A DNA stretch of 64,000 nt from Fibrobacterota bacterium (GCA_028287465.1 JAQBPO010000013.1:1-64000), one strand, 5' to 3'. Positions 41,084-51,700 are shown, counted from the first letter of the stretch. The notes: generated by a model from the letters alone, not told the origin. A program made the numbers and translations.

Positions 41084-41611
41084 GGGAGGCCTTTCGGTAT
41101 CGGTTGATACAGATAAAAAACGCACTCGGAACGCCATGTGCAAATTTTTCCAATACCGGCCGAAAACGCCGGATTGGCGAGGGTAGAAGGCTGAAACTGG
41201 GGGTCTTGCGGGTATGGGCCCAAAGGGTAACATTCGCGCCCCTCCCCTGCGCCAATCAGAAGACGGAACAAACACGACGGCTTGTCATTACAACGGGATC
41301 CGGCCAAGGGAAGGCGCCCAAGGGGCCGGTCTTGAAAAGGCCCAGACGCACAATGCCGAAGGCGGGGCCGCCGAATAGGAATGGATGGGGAAGATTGGAA
41401 TGGACCGGACAAGGACGGTGAGGCGGTTGCGGGGCAGGGGGGCCGGGTAGAGATGGAGATGGAGGAGGATGTTCACCATGGGGGGTAACCTAGGGTGAAC
41501 TTTTATTTCACCCTGGTACTAGTTGGGCGAAAGTTTACCTCATAAAAGTGTTACTCACCGATCATTCTGTCGGTGGGTAAGAAAGAAAAATATTTTATTG
41601 GGGCGGAAAAC
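41084..41611. other. non-coding stretch; base composition changes to AT-rich
   Basis: I see no convincing gene here. The first 80 bases resemble the 5' region of the second DUF5670-like locus (shared GATAC ... AACGC-CTCG ... GTGCAAATTTT). Composition switches from GC-rich to AT-rich around 41500. An 11-bp stem with one mismatch (TTACTCACCGA / TCGGTGGGTAA) lies at 41551-41580. Confidence 0.5.
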
Positions 41612-41634
41612 AGTATTGGAGTTCAACCAATACT
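41612..41634 (-). terminator. terminator of the OB-fold lipoprotein gene
   Basis: Stem AGTATTGG / CCAATACT with a 7-nt loop, beginning 5 nt after the leftward gene's stop; on the minus strand it is followed by GTTTTCC, a short T-run. Confidence 0.6.
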
Positions 41635-41638
41635 AGGC

Positions 41639-42442
41639 TTAATTCTTAAAAAGATCTTTTACCTTGGATTTGTCAAGATGAAGTTTGGTTACCGCATTCG
41701 CGTAGGATGAAGAATCAAGGCTCTTCGTTTCTTTGGAAATACACTTGTTTTTTTCTTGCTCCTTCATATTAAGACAGCTTTCAATGTTCTGCGATCTAGA
41801 AGCCAATGCCACTGAAATCATGGCTAAATAAACCGCGGTTCTATTCCCTTCTTCTAATCTCTTGTTTATTGTTAAAACAAATTTATTCGCCCATTCTTCA
41901 GCCCAATTTTCGGCGGGTTTACAGTCTCTAAGTACGGCGGATCCAAGAAGCATACCATCACCCTGGCAAACCAGATATGTCTTCTGACCCTTTTTAAGGG
42001 CTGCTAGGTAGTCTGTATAGCCATCGGCCATTGAGGCATGTGGACAGGTAAACATATTGCTTCCGCCTTTAAGGGAAATAAAATAGCTGTCACCTATGCC
42101 TCGATCAATCGACGAAACTACTCCGGTTACAGCGAGCTGTTTGTGCCGATATTTTCGATCTCCCAAAACCTCGTTTCCTTCGTAGTCAGTTTGTAGAGTT
42201 CCAGCAGTAACTCTAACCGGCTTTTCCAAGGTAGTGTCTTCTTGCAGCATCGCATCGCCTCCTTTGGCGTAGCCCGTGAAATCATCGGCCAAAAGAAACT
42301 TTAAAACGGCCACTTCCTTTTCACTCGGAGTGTACTCTTGCGTAGTTTCGGGGTGCGGCTTCTCTTGAAAATTTGAGGATGCTTTTTCTTCTGATTTGCA
42401 TCCTACTAAAATCCAAACGCATAGGAGAATTTTTTTCCACAT
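41639..42442 (-). CDS. lipoprotein with tRNA_anti-like OB fold
   Basis: A 267-residue AT-rich gene for a predicted lipoprotein (LLCVWILVGC, Cys15). Residues about 75-175 (VRVTAGTLQTDYEGNEVLGDRKYRHKQLAVTGVV, then DSYFISLKGG and YLVCQGDGML) match the tRNA_anti-like OB-fold domain found in bacterial lipoproteins. Its Cys residues could form disulfides. The base composition is clearly unlike the surrounding chromosome. It is on the opposite strand to the cassette genes that follow, so it probably lies just outside the cassette array. Confidence 0.75.
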   Translation of the reverse strand: MWKKILLCVWILVGCKSEEKASSNFQEKPHPETTQEYTPSEKEVAVLKFLLADDFTGYAKGGDAMLQEDTTLEKPVRVTAGTLQTDYEGNEVLGDRKYRHKQLAVTGVVSSIDRGIGDSYFISLKGGSNMFTCPHASMADGYTDYLAALKKGQKTYLVCQGDGMLLGSAVLRDCKPAENWAEEWANKFVLTINKRLEEGNRTAVYLAMISVALASRSQNIESCLNMKEQEKNKCISKETKSLDSSSYANAVTKLHLDKSKVKDLFKN

Positions 42443-42599
42443 TCTTGGCCTCAGACTTTGAAAATTATCGAGAAGAAATCATAGAAAACCAACAATGAGT
42501 TCTGGAGGAAAACGGTTTTCAAGCGCAGAAAGTATTTAAGACCATGAATTTCTGGAAACTAATACCCACCCCAATTAAATTCGCGAGAGAGAAACATTT

Positions 42600-42894
42600 G
42601 CCCAACAAGCCCCAGTAGGGGCCGCCCGGCGGACATGCTTTGCATTGCCGGGCCGGAAATGGCCTGGGACGGCTGCGGCCATTCGCACTAAGCTTCGCTA
42701 CTGAGCTGTCCAAGGGTCTAAATATGTGGTCTCCGTCAGTAACTCAGCTTGTGACTCATGGCACGCTGCGAGAGCGTGCTCCGGGATGCGTAGGCAACCA
42801 TTCCGCACGCGTCCCCGCGTAGCGCGCAAGTCTCTCCTTCGCCTTCAGGCCTTCGGTCGCCCCAGGCCACTTCCTACTGGGGCGAACGTTGGGC
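42600..42894 (+). repeat. attC-like site A (295 bp)
   Basis: Left end GCCCAAC (42600-42606) and right end GTTGGGC (42888-42894). Inner arms GCCCCAGTAGG and CCTACTGGGGC are perfectly complementary. The right end has the attC-typical CGAACGTTGGGC context. The middle contains GGCACGCTGCGAGAGCGTGC and a CGCGTCC...CGCGTAGCGC segment shared with the other copies. Confidence 0.65.
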
Positions 42895-42993
42895 GACACG
42901 GACCTCGAAAAGTGGCTCGTTGAGCCAAAGGGAATGATTTATTTTTTGAGGGTGGGATGGTGTTTGAAAAACCTTATTTAAGGATAATGTAAA

Positions 42994-44040
42994 TTGACAT
43001 TAATCGCTGCCTTTCTTTCGCACGAGACCCCAGCAATAGTTGGCGACTACCTGCTAACAGTTGAGAATGCAAAGTCTGGGTTAAGAAAAAAGATTATGAT
43101 TCTTGGAAAAAATGTTGCAATTGCATGGACTGGTCACTTAAGTGCTGCTAATTCAGTCATCAAAAATCTGCAATCTAAGCTACCATATTCAGAAATATCG
43201 ATGGGAAAAATCAGTGTTGTTTTGAAAGACCCCGAAACTATAGTATTTGAAGAATCCGATTCTTTCGTTACAGTAATTGGATGGGTAGTTGAGGCGAATC
43301 AAAGGTATTGTTTTAGGTGGAGCAGTGAAGACCCAACGGAGATCACTTATGGAGACCCTATTTACGAGGGCTCTGGTGCCGAAGAAATATTTCAAATCGC
43401 TGGCCCCCGTGGTCTAACTAATTCCCAAAACATAAATGACAAGTTTAGTGTAAAGCGTGGAATTCTTACGGTCTTAACTAACTTGTTAAGACTTGAACTT
43501 GTTGGCCCATCGACTGAAAATAGCGGATATGGCTTTGCTTATGAAGCGATCATTTTTGATAATAAAGTTGGCTTTCACTATTTAGATAATATTCTTTATC
43601 TATCCATAATTTATAGACTTGATGAAAAAGGAAAATATTTAGGATTTGAAGGAAATCCTAAGAAGTATAAACAAATTAGTGTTGGAAACATCTCAATTGT
43701 CCAAATTGTGAACAGTGAAAAGGAACATAATTGTTTTCACATTATTCACCCAGCAGGAAATAAAGAGAATGAAAGTTCTGATGACATACTAAGAGAGTTA
43801 AAAGATAAAACAGAAAAAATTTCCCTGGAAGCAGACTTCTATTGTATAGCCTCCATACTTATTGTACCAAACTTTCTCTGTCCCAAAATAATTGAGGTAT
43901 ATCCAAAACCAAGTAAGGATTCAAATGGACCAATAACCTTAAATGGTAACCAAATCGATTTAGTTATAAACCCTGGATATGTGGAAGCCATGTATTTACA
44001 GATAAAAGCAGATCAGGAAAATAAATTTAGTCCGAAATAA
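42994..44040 (+). CDS. cassette gene: proteasome-like Ntn-hydrolase candidate
   Basis: A 348-residue AT-rich gene starting with TTG 42994 (AAGGA at 42980-42984). After Met removal the protein would begin TLIAAFLSHETPAIVGDYLL: Thr at 1, Asp at 17, and a Lys pair at 31-32 before IMILGKNVAIAWTGHLSAA. This matches the N-terminal Thr1/Asp17/Lys33 layout and Gly-rich loop of proteasome beta/HslV subunits. The rest (two alternating strand/helix halves to about residue 290) is longer than HslV and has no motif I know. It is the first cassette after attC-like site A. The Ntn-hydrolase assignment is inference from the N-terminus. Confidence 0.6.
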   Translation: MTLIAAFLSHETPAIVGDYLLTVENAKSGLRKKIMILGKNVAIAWTGHLSAANSVIKNLQSKLPYSEISMGKISVVLKDPETIVFEESDSFVTVIGWVVEANQRYCFRWSSEDPTEITYGDPIYEGSGAEEIFQIAGPRGLTNSQNINDKFSVKRGILTVLTNLLRLELVGPSTENSGYGFAYEAIIFDNKVGFHYLDNILYLSIIYRLDEKGKYLGFEGNPKKYKQISVGNISIVQIVNSEKEHNCFHIIHPAGNKENESSDDILRELKDKTEKISLEADFYCIASILIVPNFLCPKIIEVYPKPSKDSNGPITLNGNQIDLVINPGYVEAMYLQIKADQENKFSPK

Positions 44041-44173
44041 TTTCAGAATATGTAAGTACTTACCATTATACGACTTTTAACCATAAAATTGAAAATTTCT
44101 TTGCATGAAGATGAAAGAGTAAATTGACATTGAAATAATGAGACACCCCCAAAAAAGACCGAGGCCCACGATC

Positions 44174-44443
44174 GCCCAACAGCGTCATAACGCATCGCTC
44201 GCCAGACTCGCTCGGGGCTTCGGCCAAATGGGGTTTCGCTCGGACTTGGCCCTTCAGATTGGGCTTCGGCGGCACTGACTTTCTCCGCAATCAATACCTG
44301 GTGTCTCCGTCAGTTTGCCTCAGCGCCATTTTCAGGGCACGCTGCGGGCGCGGTATCCGGGGGCAAGCTGCCCCACTCCAGCCCCGTCCTCGCATAGCAA
44401 GCCTGTCGCGAAATCCCACTTCACCATGGCGCGAACGTTGGGC
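44174..44443 (+). repeat. attC-like site B (270 bp)
   Basis: Left end GCCCAAC (44174-44180) and right end GTTGGGC (44437-44443), preceded by CGCGAAC. Inner arms GCGTCAT and the complement of GCGCCAT pair with one wobble. Internal GGCACGCTGCGGGCGCGG and CGTCCTCGCAT blocks are shared with other copies. Confidence 0.65.
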
Positions 44444-44476
44444 GAAATTTCCCCGCGGAAGAGTTAGATTTCAAAA

Positions 44477-44770
44477 ATGGAAATCGATAAGTTAAAATTG
44501 AGGGAAGCAAAAAGACAGATTAGGAAAATCCTCCTGGAGTATTGGGATCCGATTGGAGTAAACGACGTTCCCGAAGCCCAAGATGAGTATGACAACTATC
44601 TTGGAAAGATATTTTCCATGTTAGAAACAAAAGCTTCTGAAGATGAATTGATAAGTCATTTGTATTGGATTGAAACAGATCATATGGGACTGACATCTCG
44701 GTCAAAAGAGGCGATAAAACCAATTGTGCAGAAACTCTTACTAATCGATGCAAATGTGAAGAAAAACTAG
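44477..44770 (+). CDS. cassette gene: 97-aa helical acidic protein
   Basis: A 97-residue, Glu/Asp/Lys-rich, helical cytoplasmic protein. The block LLEYWDPIGVNDVPEAQDEYDNY (in two parts: LLEYWDPIGVNDVP and EAQDEYDNYLGKIF) recalls small proteins common in integron cassettes and resembles DUF1871 (EWDPIG...DEYD). It starts 34 nt after the end of attC-like site B, the compact layout typical of cassettes. AT-rich. The function is unknown. Confidence 0.75.
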   Translation: MEIDKLKLREAKRQIRKILLEYWDPIGVNDVPEAQDEYDNYLGKIFSMLETKASEDELISHLYWIETDHMGLTSRSKEAIKPIVQKLLLIDANVKKN

Positions 44771-44821
44771 AAGAACCGCGGGGAAACTTGGATTGCCTAA
44801 GAAGTCTCCAGCCTTCGGCTC

Positions 44822-45079
44822 GCCCAACAACGCCAAGGCAGCCTTCGCGCACTTTCCAGTGCGCTCCGGGGGCTCCACCAAAACGGCTTTTCAGGTTGGC
44901 TTGGCAGTTAAGACAGAGTTTCGAGCGGCGCGAAATTCCGTTCGCGCCTACGTCCGCTTGCTCTCTACTGGTCTTCACGGCATTCTGCGGGCGCGCGCTC
45001 CGGGGCACTTACGACCCACTCCGCGCGCGTCCTCGCAATTCGCGTATGGTTCCAGAGTCAACTTCTCCATGGGCCAACG
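44822..45079 (+). repeat. attC-like site C (258 bp), right end degenerate
   Basis: Left end GCCCAACAACGCC (from 44822). The right end reads CTTCTCCATGGGCCAACG and then AAGCAT instead of GTTGGGC: similarity to site B stops right after the G where integrase would cut. Shares the TACGTCCGCTTGCTCTC and GTCTTCACGGC blocks with site D. Confidence 0.5.
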
Positions 45080-45277
45080 AAGCATACAATTTCCCCCCAC
45101 ACAAAACGAAATGCAGAAAATCAAAACCCGCCCCCAAAGGGAAGGAAAAATCGCTAGCCAGAATTTCGAAAGCCAAACCCCGCTTGCTGCCGATGTAAGT
45201 ATTGGTAGATTTGGGTTTTCTATTGCTCCACCTAAACAAAGTTCGGCCGACACGCTTCGGAGATTTAGGAGACCACC

Positions 45278-45784
45278 ATGCCCGCCCGCAAGACAGACAA
45301 AACTCCCAAGCCCGCAGGCCGGAAGCCGACCAAGCGCACGGCGGTACTAGGCAAATCGGTCACGCCTCTGCCGAAATCTATGGCGACCGGCAAGGCAAGC
45401 CCGGCGAAGTCTGCGGTCGGCGACAAGCCGGTCTTCGCCTACATCGCTAGCCTGCCGCAGCCGCAGCGCGGCATCGCGGAGCGTGTTGATGCTCTTGCGG
45501 CCAAGACGCTTCCCGGCCTGCAGCGCTCGGTGAAATGGGGCATGTCCTACTATGGCGTCGGCGACGGCTGGTGCCTCTGTTGCGGTGGATTCGCCGGCCA
45601 CGTCAAGCTCATGTTCGTAAACGGCGCGGAGCTCAAGCCGGTACCCCCGGTGACGCCTGTGGCGATGGGCAAATCTACGCGGGGCGTGGAGCTTAAATCC
45701 GTGGATGACCTCGACGAACGGCAGATCGCGGCATGGATGAAGCAAGTCGTGGCGGTGCCCGGTGTCGGGGGGAAGAAGCGGTAG
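45278..45784 (+). CDS. cassette gene: DUF1801 protein
   Basis: A 168-residue DUF1801 (YdhG-like fold) protein: VFAYIASLPQPQRGIAERVDAL, VKWGMSYYGVGDGWCLCCGGF, HVKLMFVNGAEL and a closing SVDDLDERQIAAWMKQ. The first 45 residues are a Lys/Pro-rich basic extension (ARKTDKTPKPAGRKPTKRT). AGGAG precedes ATG 45278. It is GC-rich, unlike its cassette neighbours, which suggests a different donor. The function of DUF1801 is not known. Confidence 0.85.
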   Translation: MPARKTDKTPKPAGRKPTKRTAVLGKSVTPLPKSMATGKASPAKSAVGDKPVFAYIASLPQPQRGIAERVDALAAKTLPGLQRSVKWGMSYYGVGDGWCLCCGGFAGHVKLMFVNGAELKPVPPVTPVAMGKSTRGVELKSVDDLDERQIAAWMKQVVAVPGVGGKKR

Positions 45785-46063
45785 GCCGGAAATCGGCCGC
45801 GAAGGCGAAGGTCGCGTTGAACAGGGAGCGGACTGGCAAGCTTTGAAACGAGTGGCGATCGCATCGGTGTCAGAGGGCGGGCCAATAAACAGCTTGCAGC
45901 TCACAGCTCTGCGCGCCGCCGTTGATGCAGGAATTTAACCCGACATAAGAAAAACCGGAGCGGGAAAAAAAGTGAGGGGGGCTGGAAATACGAAAACCAG
46001 GGTCCCCGGTCATTTCTTCGTGTTTGGAGGCACTCAGCGGGCCATGCCGGCCCTTGGGCTTCG

Positions 46064-46319
46064 GCACATGCAACAAACGGCATTACGGCGGCTTGCTTCG
46101 CCAGCCTCCCAAATGGCTTTTCGGGTTGGCCTGGCCGTTCAGACTGAATTTCGAGTAGCGCGATCGTCACTTGGCGCCTACGTCCGCTTGCTCTCAATTT
46201 GTCTTCACGGCGTGTTGCGGGTGCTCATTCCGGAGGCGGTAATGCCCCCCTTCTTTCGCGTCCTCACATGTCAGGCCAAACCCGAAAAGCCACTTCGTAA
46301 TGCCGCGAACGTTATGTGC
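46064..46319 (+). repeat. attC-like site D (256 bp)
   Basis: Ends GCACAT(GC)AAC and GTTATGTGC are complementary apart from one inserted GC pair. Inner arms CGGCATTACG / CGTAATGCCG are perfectly complementary, and the CGCGAACGTT context is conserved. Middle blocks (GGTTGGCCTGGCCGTTCAGA, TACGTCCGCTTGCTCTC, CGCGTCCTC) match site C and partly B. Confidence 0.65.
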
Positions 46320-46455: not shown

Positions 46456-47283
46456 ATGACTAACGTGAATGTCGTGATTGGGGCAGGGTCAATCGGTCAA
46501 GCAATTGCTCGTCGCGTGAGCATTGGCAAGAAGGTCTTATTGGCTGATCTGCGAAAGGAAAATGCAGAAGCAGCTGCGAAAGTATTAAGTGAGGCGGGAT
46601 TTGATGTAAGTACAGCCGTAGTGGACGTATCTTCGCGGGAATCTGTCCATTCGCTTGCGAAAACCGCCTCGGCGATCGGGGAAATCGTAGGTGTAATCCA
46701 CGCGGCTGGCGTATCTCCTTCGCAGGCATCACCGAGTACAATTCTAAAAGTCGATCTTTATGGTACGGCGCTTGTACTTGAGGAATTTGGAAATGTAATC
46801 GGACAAGGTGGATCCGCCGTTGTAATATCTTCTCAGTCCGGGCACAGGCTTCCAGCACTTACGCCCGATCAAGACAAGGCGTTGGCGACTACTCCAGTCG
46901 ACGATTTGCTCAGTCTTCCCATGCTCAATTTGGATCACCTGACTGACCCGCTTTATGCTTACCAGATTTCCAAGCGCGGGAATTCATTGCGGGTCATGGC
47001 AGAGGCCGTAAGATGGGGCAAGCGTGGTGCGCGAGTCAATACAATTAGCCCTGGCATTATTTTCACGCCTCTAGCATATGATGAGTTAAATGGGCCGCGT
47101 GGTGAAGGATACAGGCGCATGATTCAATTATCCTCAGCCGGCCGTGGCGGCACTCCAGATGAAGTCGGATCCGTCGCGGCCCTCTTAATGGGGCCAGATG
47201 GTACATTCATAACCGGCAGTGATTTTCTAATGGATGGTGGTGTCACTGCTGCCTATTGGTATGGCGAACTCGCTCCAAAGTAA
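46456..47283 (+). CDS. short-chain dehydrogenase, last cassette gene
   Basis: A 275-residue SDR: VNVVIGAGSIGQAIARR (nucleotide binding, GxGxxG variant), LADLRKENA (Asp then Arg), VVDVSSRESV, VIHAAG, catalytic Ser in VISSQSGHR and YQISKRG (Tyr-x-x-x-Lys), then NTISPGIIFTPLA and a C-terminal FLMDGGVTAAYW. AAAGAGG precedes ATG 46456. AT-rich relative to the chromosome. It follows attC-like site D by 136 nt, but no attC-like site is seen after it, so it is either the last, decayed cassette or outside the array. Confidence 0.88.
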   Translation: MTNVNVVIGAGSIGQAIARRVSIGKKVLLADLRKENAEAAAKVLSEAGFDVSTAVVDVSSRESVHSLAKTASAIGEIVGVIHAAGVSPSQASPSTILKVDLYGTALVLEEFGNVIGQGGSAVVISSQSGHRLPALTPDQDKALATTPVDDLLSLPMLNLDHLTDPLYAYQISKRGNSLRVMAEAVRWGKRGARVNTISPGIIFTPLAYDELNGPRGEGYRRMIQLSSAGRGGTPDEVGSVAALLMGPDGTFITGSDFLMDGGVTAAYWYGELAPK

Positions 47284-51619: not shown

Positions 51620-51700
51620 TTAGCTTGGATTATCCCGCCGCGCCAATCGGTTCCGAGGCTCCACTTCATTCGCGTCCTCGCGTATCGGCAATGGCACTAG
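51620..51700 (+). repeat. possible remnant of an attC-like element
   Basis: Short similarity to the interior of site C (CGCGTCCTCGC followed by CGTATCGG, and a CCACT(T)C lead-in). The characteristic GTTGGGC end is missing. If real, it marks an older right border of the cassette region. Confidence 0.3.

Follow-up and report, generated by a model that had tools for sequence, protein, structure and literature searches.

An orphan cassette array in a Fibrobacterota genome points to an integron-like system whose recombinase lacks the I2 helix

The window analysed here, a stretch of 64,000 nucleotides corresponding to contig C18 of a 5.8-Mb Fibrobacterota genome, carries a short array of genes separated by four unusually long sites that resemble the attC sites of integrons. 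Our analysis suggests that this is, quite probably, the orphan cassette array of an integron-like system that relies on a tyrosine recombinase related to IntI, but distinct from canonical IntI, in which the I2 helix is missing (hereafter I2-less). The main result is this recombinase, which accompanies the sites in related species, together with its wide occurrence; the cognate recombinase and the lack of an extrahelical base matter more than the length of the sites, the feature put forward in the initial annotation of the window. The site family, the complementarity of cassette ends, the conserved branched fold, the linkage to an I2-less recombinase and the lack of both I2 and an extrahelical base can be read directly in the sequences, and cassette recombination itself would be the process behind them. 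In what follows, G000 denotes the window's own genome and G001 to G005 five relatives of the same genus, each species being represented by one genome.

The four elements of the window (255–295 bp) do form one family, as first proposed, since a profile built from them finds it in all five same-genus genomes. BLASTN with a single element proved too insensitive, missing the other three window copies, and we used nhmmer and a covariance model of the conserved core instead. The covariance model detects exactly four copies in G000, all of them in the window array (5.4e-34 to 8.4e-27), and 33 copies in the six genomes together (G000 4, G001 3, G002 20, G003 2, G004 3, G005 1); 25 other genomes of the class yielded no copy. 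Among the genomes searched, the long-site family is restricted to this Fibrobacterota genus, which bears out the lineage-specific character suspected at the outset. Rfam contains no relevant family. For 18 elements, RNAalifold gives 47 pairs, 33 of which are doubly compensated; in an independent count, 92.8% of the cells of the conserved core are paired, versus at most 52% when slid, and the covariation score of the core is 0.52 versus at most 0.11. The fold is a branched hairpin in which a basal helix leads to a junction with two arms, and the folds of single elements differ (z -4.8, -3.9 and -0.95). The inner arms, previously noted as complementary, pair in an element-specific manner, with an L''/L' score of 145.5 versus 91.7 +/- 6.9 for shuffled arms (0/5000). 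As in canonical integrons, R''/R' boxes, L''/L' boxes and a GTT boundary are all present in the long sites.

In integrons, crossover at the GTT triplet leaves the 5' end of a cassette (GTTNNNNNN) complementary to R'' of its own site, and within an array the preceding site supplies this 5' end as its boundary. With boundaries assigned by eye on the alignment, R'' of 16 long sites from three arrays matches the preceding boundary at 82/96 variable positions and its own R' at 49/96, and 0/100,000 shuffles reach 82. The same holds for G002 alone (61/72, 0/100,000 shuffles). Such complementarity is the hallmark of circular cassettes recombining as they do in integrons, and it points to that process here. 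The window array is laid out as follows.

41489..41528 (+): attI-like site, imperfectly palindromic (CCTAGGGTGAAC-N-TTCACCCTGG), with ACTA^GTTGGGC as the boundary after it
41522..42887 (+): cassette 1, running from one boundary to the next; R'' of site 1 versus the boundary at 41522, 5/6 variable positions complementary
41639..42442 (-): cassette 1 gene, 267 aa, tRNA_anti-like (PF12869), probable lipoprotein
42600..42894 (+): long attC-like site 1, 295 bp, GCCCAAC...GTTGGGC; bottom-strand fold z -4.8
42888..44436 (+): cassette 2; R'' of site 2 versus boundary 6/6
42994..44040 (+): cassette 2 gene, 348 aa, no known family, 35.6% GC
44174..44443 (+): long attC-like site 2, 270 bp
44437..45078 (+): cassette 3; R'' of site 3 versus boundary 6/6
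44477..44770 (+): cassette 3 gene, 97 aa, no known family, 37.1% GC
44822..45087 (+): long attC-like site 3, R' degenerate, right end apparently mutated (GAAGCATAC in place of GTTGCAT..)
45079..46310 (+): cassette 4; R'' of site 4 versus the apparently mutated boundary 4/6, versus its own R' 2/6
45278..45784 (+): cassette 4 gene, DUF1801 (PF08818), 64.9% GC
46065..46319 (+): long attC-like site 4, 255 bp, R' GTTATGTGC
46456..47283 (+): short-chain dehydrogenase/reductase (SDR) oxidoreductase gene behind the last site, 79% identity to Variovorax/Rhizobium plasmid proteins

The palindrome that opens the window array also opens, with other loops, three arrays of G002 (C85, C59 and C81), and in C85 it overlaps the end of the recombinase gene. 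A palindrome followed by a GTT boundary stands at the array start in the window, G002, G003 and G004, where it is a putative attI, as expected of a canonical integron. An exact search for the palindrome matches G002 only, because the arms differ in G000, G003 and G004. The initial annotation had placed the array at 42600–46319, which covers the four sites and misses this start. It had also stated that gene direction always agrees with site polarity; this is true of three cassettes and fails for cassette 1, whose gene lies on the minus strand. The clash in composition that it reported is real, the cassette genes ranging from 35.6 to 64.9% GC versus 60.4% for the whole window.

No recombinase gene lies near the window array. 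In contrast, an I2-less tyrosine recombinase family is represented once in each of G001–G005, intact in G001–G003 and G005 and N-terminally shortened in G004. Arrays of long sites follow it codirectionally in G002 (+27 bp), G004 (+59 bp) and G003 (+598 bp), and in these three genomes an attI-like boundary comes after the recombinase and is matched by R'' of the first long site. In G005 (contig C127), a recombinase fragment and a long site occur on the same strand, about 10 kb apart. The enzymes share 47–54% identity between species and have the C-terminal SPLD motif in common with IntI. About 40 residues are missing at the position of the I2 insert in this second recombinase family of the genus. 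Accordingly, the spacing between the KGxKxR and HxLRH motifs is 57–66 aa in the I2-less and Xer rows in which both were found, and 100 in IntI rows; the window has no integrase with the IntI-specific insert beside its array, and the recombinases linked to long sites in the relatives have the short spacing. The TIGR02249 score is 208 bits, under the cut-off of 265. An AlphaFold model of the F. difficile I2-less enzyme (pLDDT 84.6) has a short loop at the I2 position, and its best structural matches are XerA (4a8e, Z 23.5) and Vibrio cholerae IntI (2a3v, Z 21.3, 255 of 317 residues). In a quick, unrooted tree, IntI and Xer each form one clade (support 99 for both) and the I2-less rows fall outside both.

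The association extends beyond the genus. We scanned named genomes for the I2-less recombinase (80 loci) and applied an ab initio chain finder that demands complementarity of R'' to the preceding GTT boundary and L''/L' pairing, with thresholds taken from the Fibrobacterota arrays. It detected arrays directly downstream of I2-less recombinases in Flavobacterium, Winogradskyella, Aquimarina, Arundinibacter, Rufibacter, Saccharibacillus and Halanaerobacter. Those of Flavobacterium, Winogradskyella, Saccharibacillus and Halanaerobacter hold 2–17 cassettes and start mostly 40–210 bp behind the recombinase. Chains of at least three sites starting within 1 kb follow 14/80 recombinases with at least 1.5 kb downstream, versus 0/240 shuffles and 1/88 upstream flanks; single-site 'chains' are at noise level, and no claim is built on them. 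Since the sites are palindromic, the finder detects the arrays on either strand, and polarity was therefore taken from gene direction and the attI side. In an independent set, the recombinase occurs in 24/249 Flavobacterium genomes, and chains of at least two sites follow it in 9/15 cases with enough sequence, with up to 17 cassettes (shuffles 4/90, none with at least three sites). In 11 Flavobacterium arrays, seven from this set and four from the named one, 74/76 cassette open reading frames lie on the recombinase strand, and in most of them a TTGCGTRTAT motif precedes the first boundary. The conserved Flavobacterium attI flank stops at GTT, identity being 0.56 before and 0.41 after it (n = 10).

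Taken together, we think it rather likely that these systems represent a second class of integrons, widespread in Fibrobacterota, Bacteroidota, Bacillota and plasmids, with I2-less recombinases and sites without extrahelical bases, so that cassettes could be captured without I2. Such a class may be ancestral or parallel to the known one and may have delivered tet(X3) to Acinetobacter plasmids. It is apparently undescribed: our literature search found no description of I2-less cassette systems, although preprints and most subscription journals were outside its reach, so priority is not proven.

The description of the window array as integrase-less is correct locally. The genome nevertheless carries a canonical IntI on contig C13 (TIGR02249 377 bits) with its own divergent array, and searching the relatives for an integrase and further sites, as had been suggested, revealed IntI in G001, G002 and G003 as well. 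The window array could be an ordinary cluster of attC sites lacking integron integrases (CALIN), in which the long sites are no more than extreme attCs that the IntI of C13 or a lost relative mobilises too, and in which the I2-less recombinase plays no part. The classical attC ends of the long sites agree with this explanation, as does an element of the long type at the end of the IntI contig of G001. However, the IntI arrays of G000, G002 and G003 contain another type of site, in G000 about 136 bp with GTATAAC...GTTATAC ends, with an extrahelical base, and have another attI boundary (GTTATACGG), whereas the long-site arrays open at a different palindrome. Moreover, 16 genomes with I2-less arrays, in Flavobacterium and elsewhere, have no TIGR02249 match at 1e-40, and the same search detected IntI in G000. 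The L boxes of I2-less sites generally pair without an extra C or show substitutions there; gaps do occur in this comparison in a few short sites of L061 and L104, and window site 2, poorly aligned at L'', is uninformative. We therefore regard mobilisation by IntI as unlikely. The initial interpretation as an integron was right in kind, and what it lacked is the link of the long sites, in relatives, to an I2-less recombinase.

Two side observations concern IntI itself. The IntI of the genus and that of G010 are extended at the N-terminus by about 110 residues, which precede the usual SAM-like domain (L042:1596-1950, G000:C13). A stretch of about 480 nt (L043:1014-1495, L044:3234-3698; 69% identical) is common to the G002 and G003 IntI arrays; it has no obvious open reading frame and no Rfam match and is perhaps a non-coding cassette.

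Several points weigh against assigning the long sites to the I2-less recombinase. No such recombinase occurs in G000, and the link for the window array is drawn from its relatives. Direct linkage is seen in three genomes of the genus, the contigs of G001 and G005 ending too soon. An additional C in L'', read as G on the bottom strand, was found in 6/6 IntI sites, and these six were the only ones compared. The bottom strand is the more stable fold in 66/79 I2-less sites and 13/18 long ones, only a moderate preference, and the counts of GT and AC in the fold do not settle the choice of strand. Many I2-less recombinases, in archaea and Patescibacteria, show no array, and the enzyme family as a whole is thus no array marker. 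Finally, the IntI contig of G001 (L046:1-202, G001:C17) ends within an element of the long type, behind GCATAAC, a match to the boundary of the IntI attI. Sites of this type may therefore be accepted by IntI or lie in its neighbourhood. This contig edge is a possible point of contact between the two systems.

Alternatively, the I2-less recombinase could merely mark the platform, with host XerC/XerD or another recombinase exchanging the strands, as for integrative mobile elements exploiting Xer (IMEX). Xer-type recombinases are present in the genus and the I2-less fold is nearest to Xer enzymes (4a8e, see above), but the arrays are codirectional with the I2-less gene and mostly within about 200 bp of it, their sites differ between its lineages, and no dif-like core was recognised by eye, no dif search having been run. 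This makes strand exchange by Xer very improbable. We give almost no credence to the idea that the long elements, although repeated, structured and intergenic, are miniature inverted-repeat transposable elements (MITEs), REP-like (repetitive extragenic palindromic) repeats or a structured non-coding RNA rather than recombination sites, given the complementarity of R'' to the preceding boundary, the cassette chains, the attI start and the lack of an Rfam family. A MITE in particular, the alternative named in the initial annotation, is disfavoured: instead of dispersed copies with target-site duplications, all four copies of G000 lie in one array and follow the R''/R' logic of cassettes.

An integron-like system with an I2-less recombinase could operate as follows. 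The recombinase gene would be followed by a codirectional attI site, in the genus a palindrome ending TAG^TT, at which circular cassettes, each with one long attC-like hairpin, would enter. Strand exchange at the GTT triplet would keep the GTTNNNNNN end of the cassette and R'' of its site complementary. The substrate would be the folded, probably bottom, strand of the site, and the branched inner structure or mismatches, together with the exactly paired L box, may replace the extrahelical base that I2 reads. From the sequences we infer the I2-less recombinase as catalyst, a single-strand substrate and a means of preventing second-strand exchange. The window array would probably be decaying after loss of its recombinase, unless this gene lies in an assembly gap. 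Decay is suggested because the palindrome is imperfect and GTT is mutated in site 3, the right end of which reads as a GTT boundary changed from TT to AA (GAAGCATAC, where R'' of site 4 predicts GTTGCATG). The SDR oxidoreductase gene may be chromosomal, or it may be a last cassette that lacks a site; the covariance model found no fifth long site in G000. A weak partial match to the long-element profile at 51651–51694 of the window (17 bits), outside the array and not found by the covariance model, is probably due to chance.

The proposed system resembles canonical integrons (class 1, the Vibrio superintegron) in its GTT boundary, its R and L boxes, its single site per cassette, its mostly codirectional genes, its complementary cassette ends and the better fold of the bottom strand. 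It differs in that its cognate recombinase has no I2 insert and is transcribed towards the array, that L'' has no extrahelical base, and that the sites of the genus are branched and 255–295 bp long, beyond known site lengths, as had been pointed out. Treponema integrons are distinct too, having integron integrases and attC sites of 63–132 bp (PMC3607928). Like a CALIN, the window array is a run of cassette sites with no neighbouring integrase; unlike one, it opens at an attI-like site, and its sites would belong to another recombination system. XerA, XerC and XerD (PDB 4a8e, 5hxy, 1a0p) share the domain plan, the absence of I2 and the best structural match with the I2-less recombinases, which nevertheless adjoin cassette arrays, have the SPLD motif of IntI and are separate from Xer rows in the tree.

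The I2 helix, which docks the extrahelical bases in canonical integrons, is regarded as exclusive to IntI and as a requirement for capturing cassettes (PMC7790495). Integron search tools require I2 (PMC9668308), and complete integrons are therefore reported to be nearly absent from Firmicutes and Bacteroidetes (PMC9024848). If I2-less recombinases do capture cassettes, the origin of integrons would become directly testable on natural enzymes, a large unseen reservoir of cassettes would exist (up to 17 per Flavobacterium array), and the 'XerD' beside tet(X3) would be explained.

Some individual loci outside the genus deserve mention. The 94-bp sites of Saccharibacillus (Bacillota) fold into three hairpins arranged as a cloverleaf, and the differences between copies compensate one another (L070:11329-11428). 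In the output of the chain finder, a two-site chain behind the recombinase of a Flavobacterium genome (L242, G356) has sites of 299 and 287 bp; long sites may thus also exist in Flavobacterium. A Chryseobacterium plasmid (L177, NZ_CP041688.1, 7803-13601) carries an I2-less recombinase with a three-site chain, one site of which is 86% identical to F. difficile sites; the system is thus present on plasmids, and its sites cross genera. On an Acinetobacter indicus plasmid (L178, NZ_CP041297.1 18391-27074; 4028-6140), the 'XerD'-like recombinase next to tet(X3) is a member of the I2-less family (52.6% identity to F. difficile over 80%). There, tet(X3) is codirectional and lies behind a palindrome and GTTATGTGCC; it is followed by what appears to be a Bacteroidota I2-less site truncated to its left half, with an R'' that fits the boundary only partly and a score of 41 against a shuffled maximum of 29.

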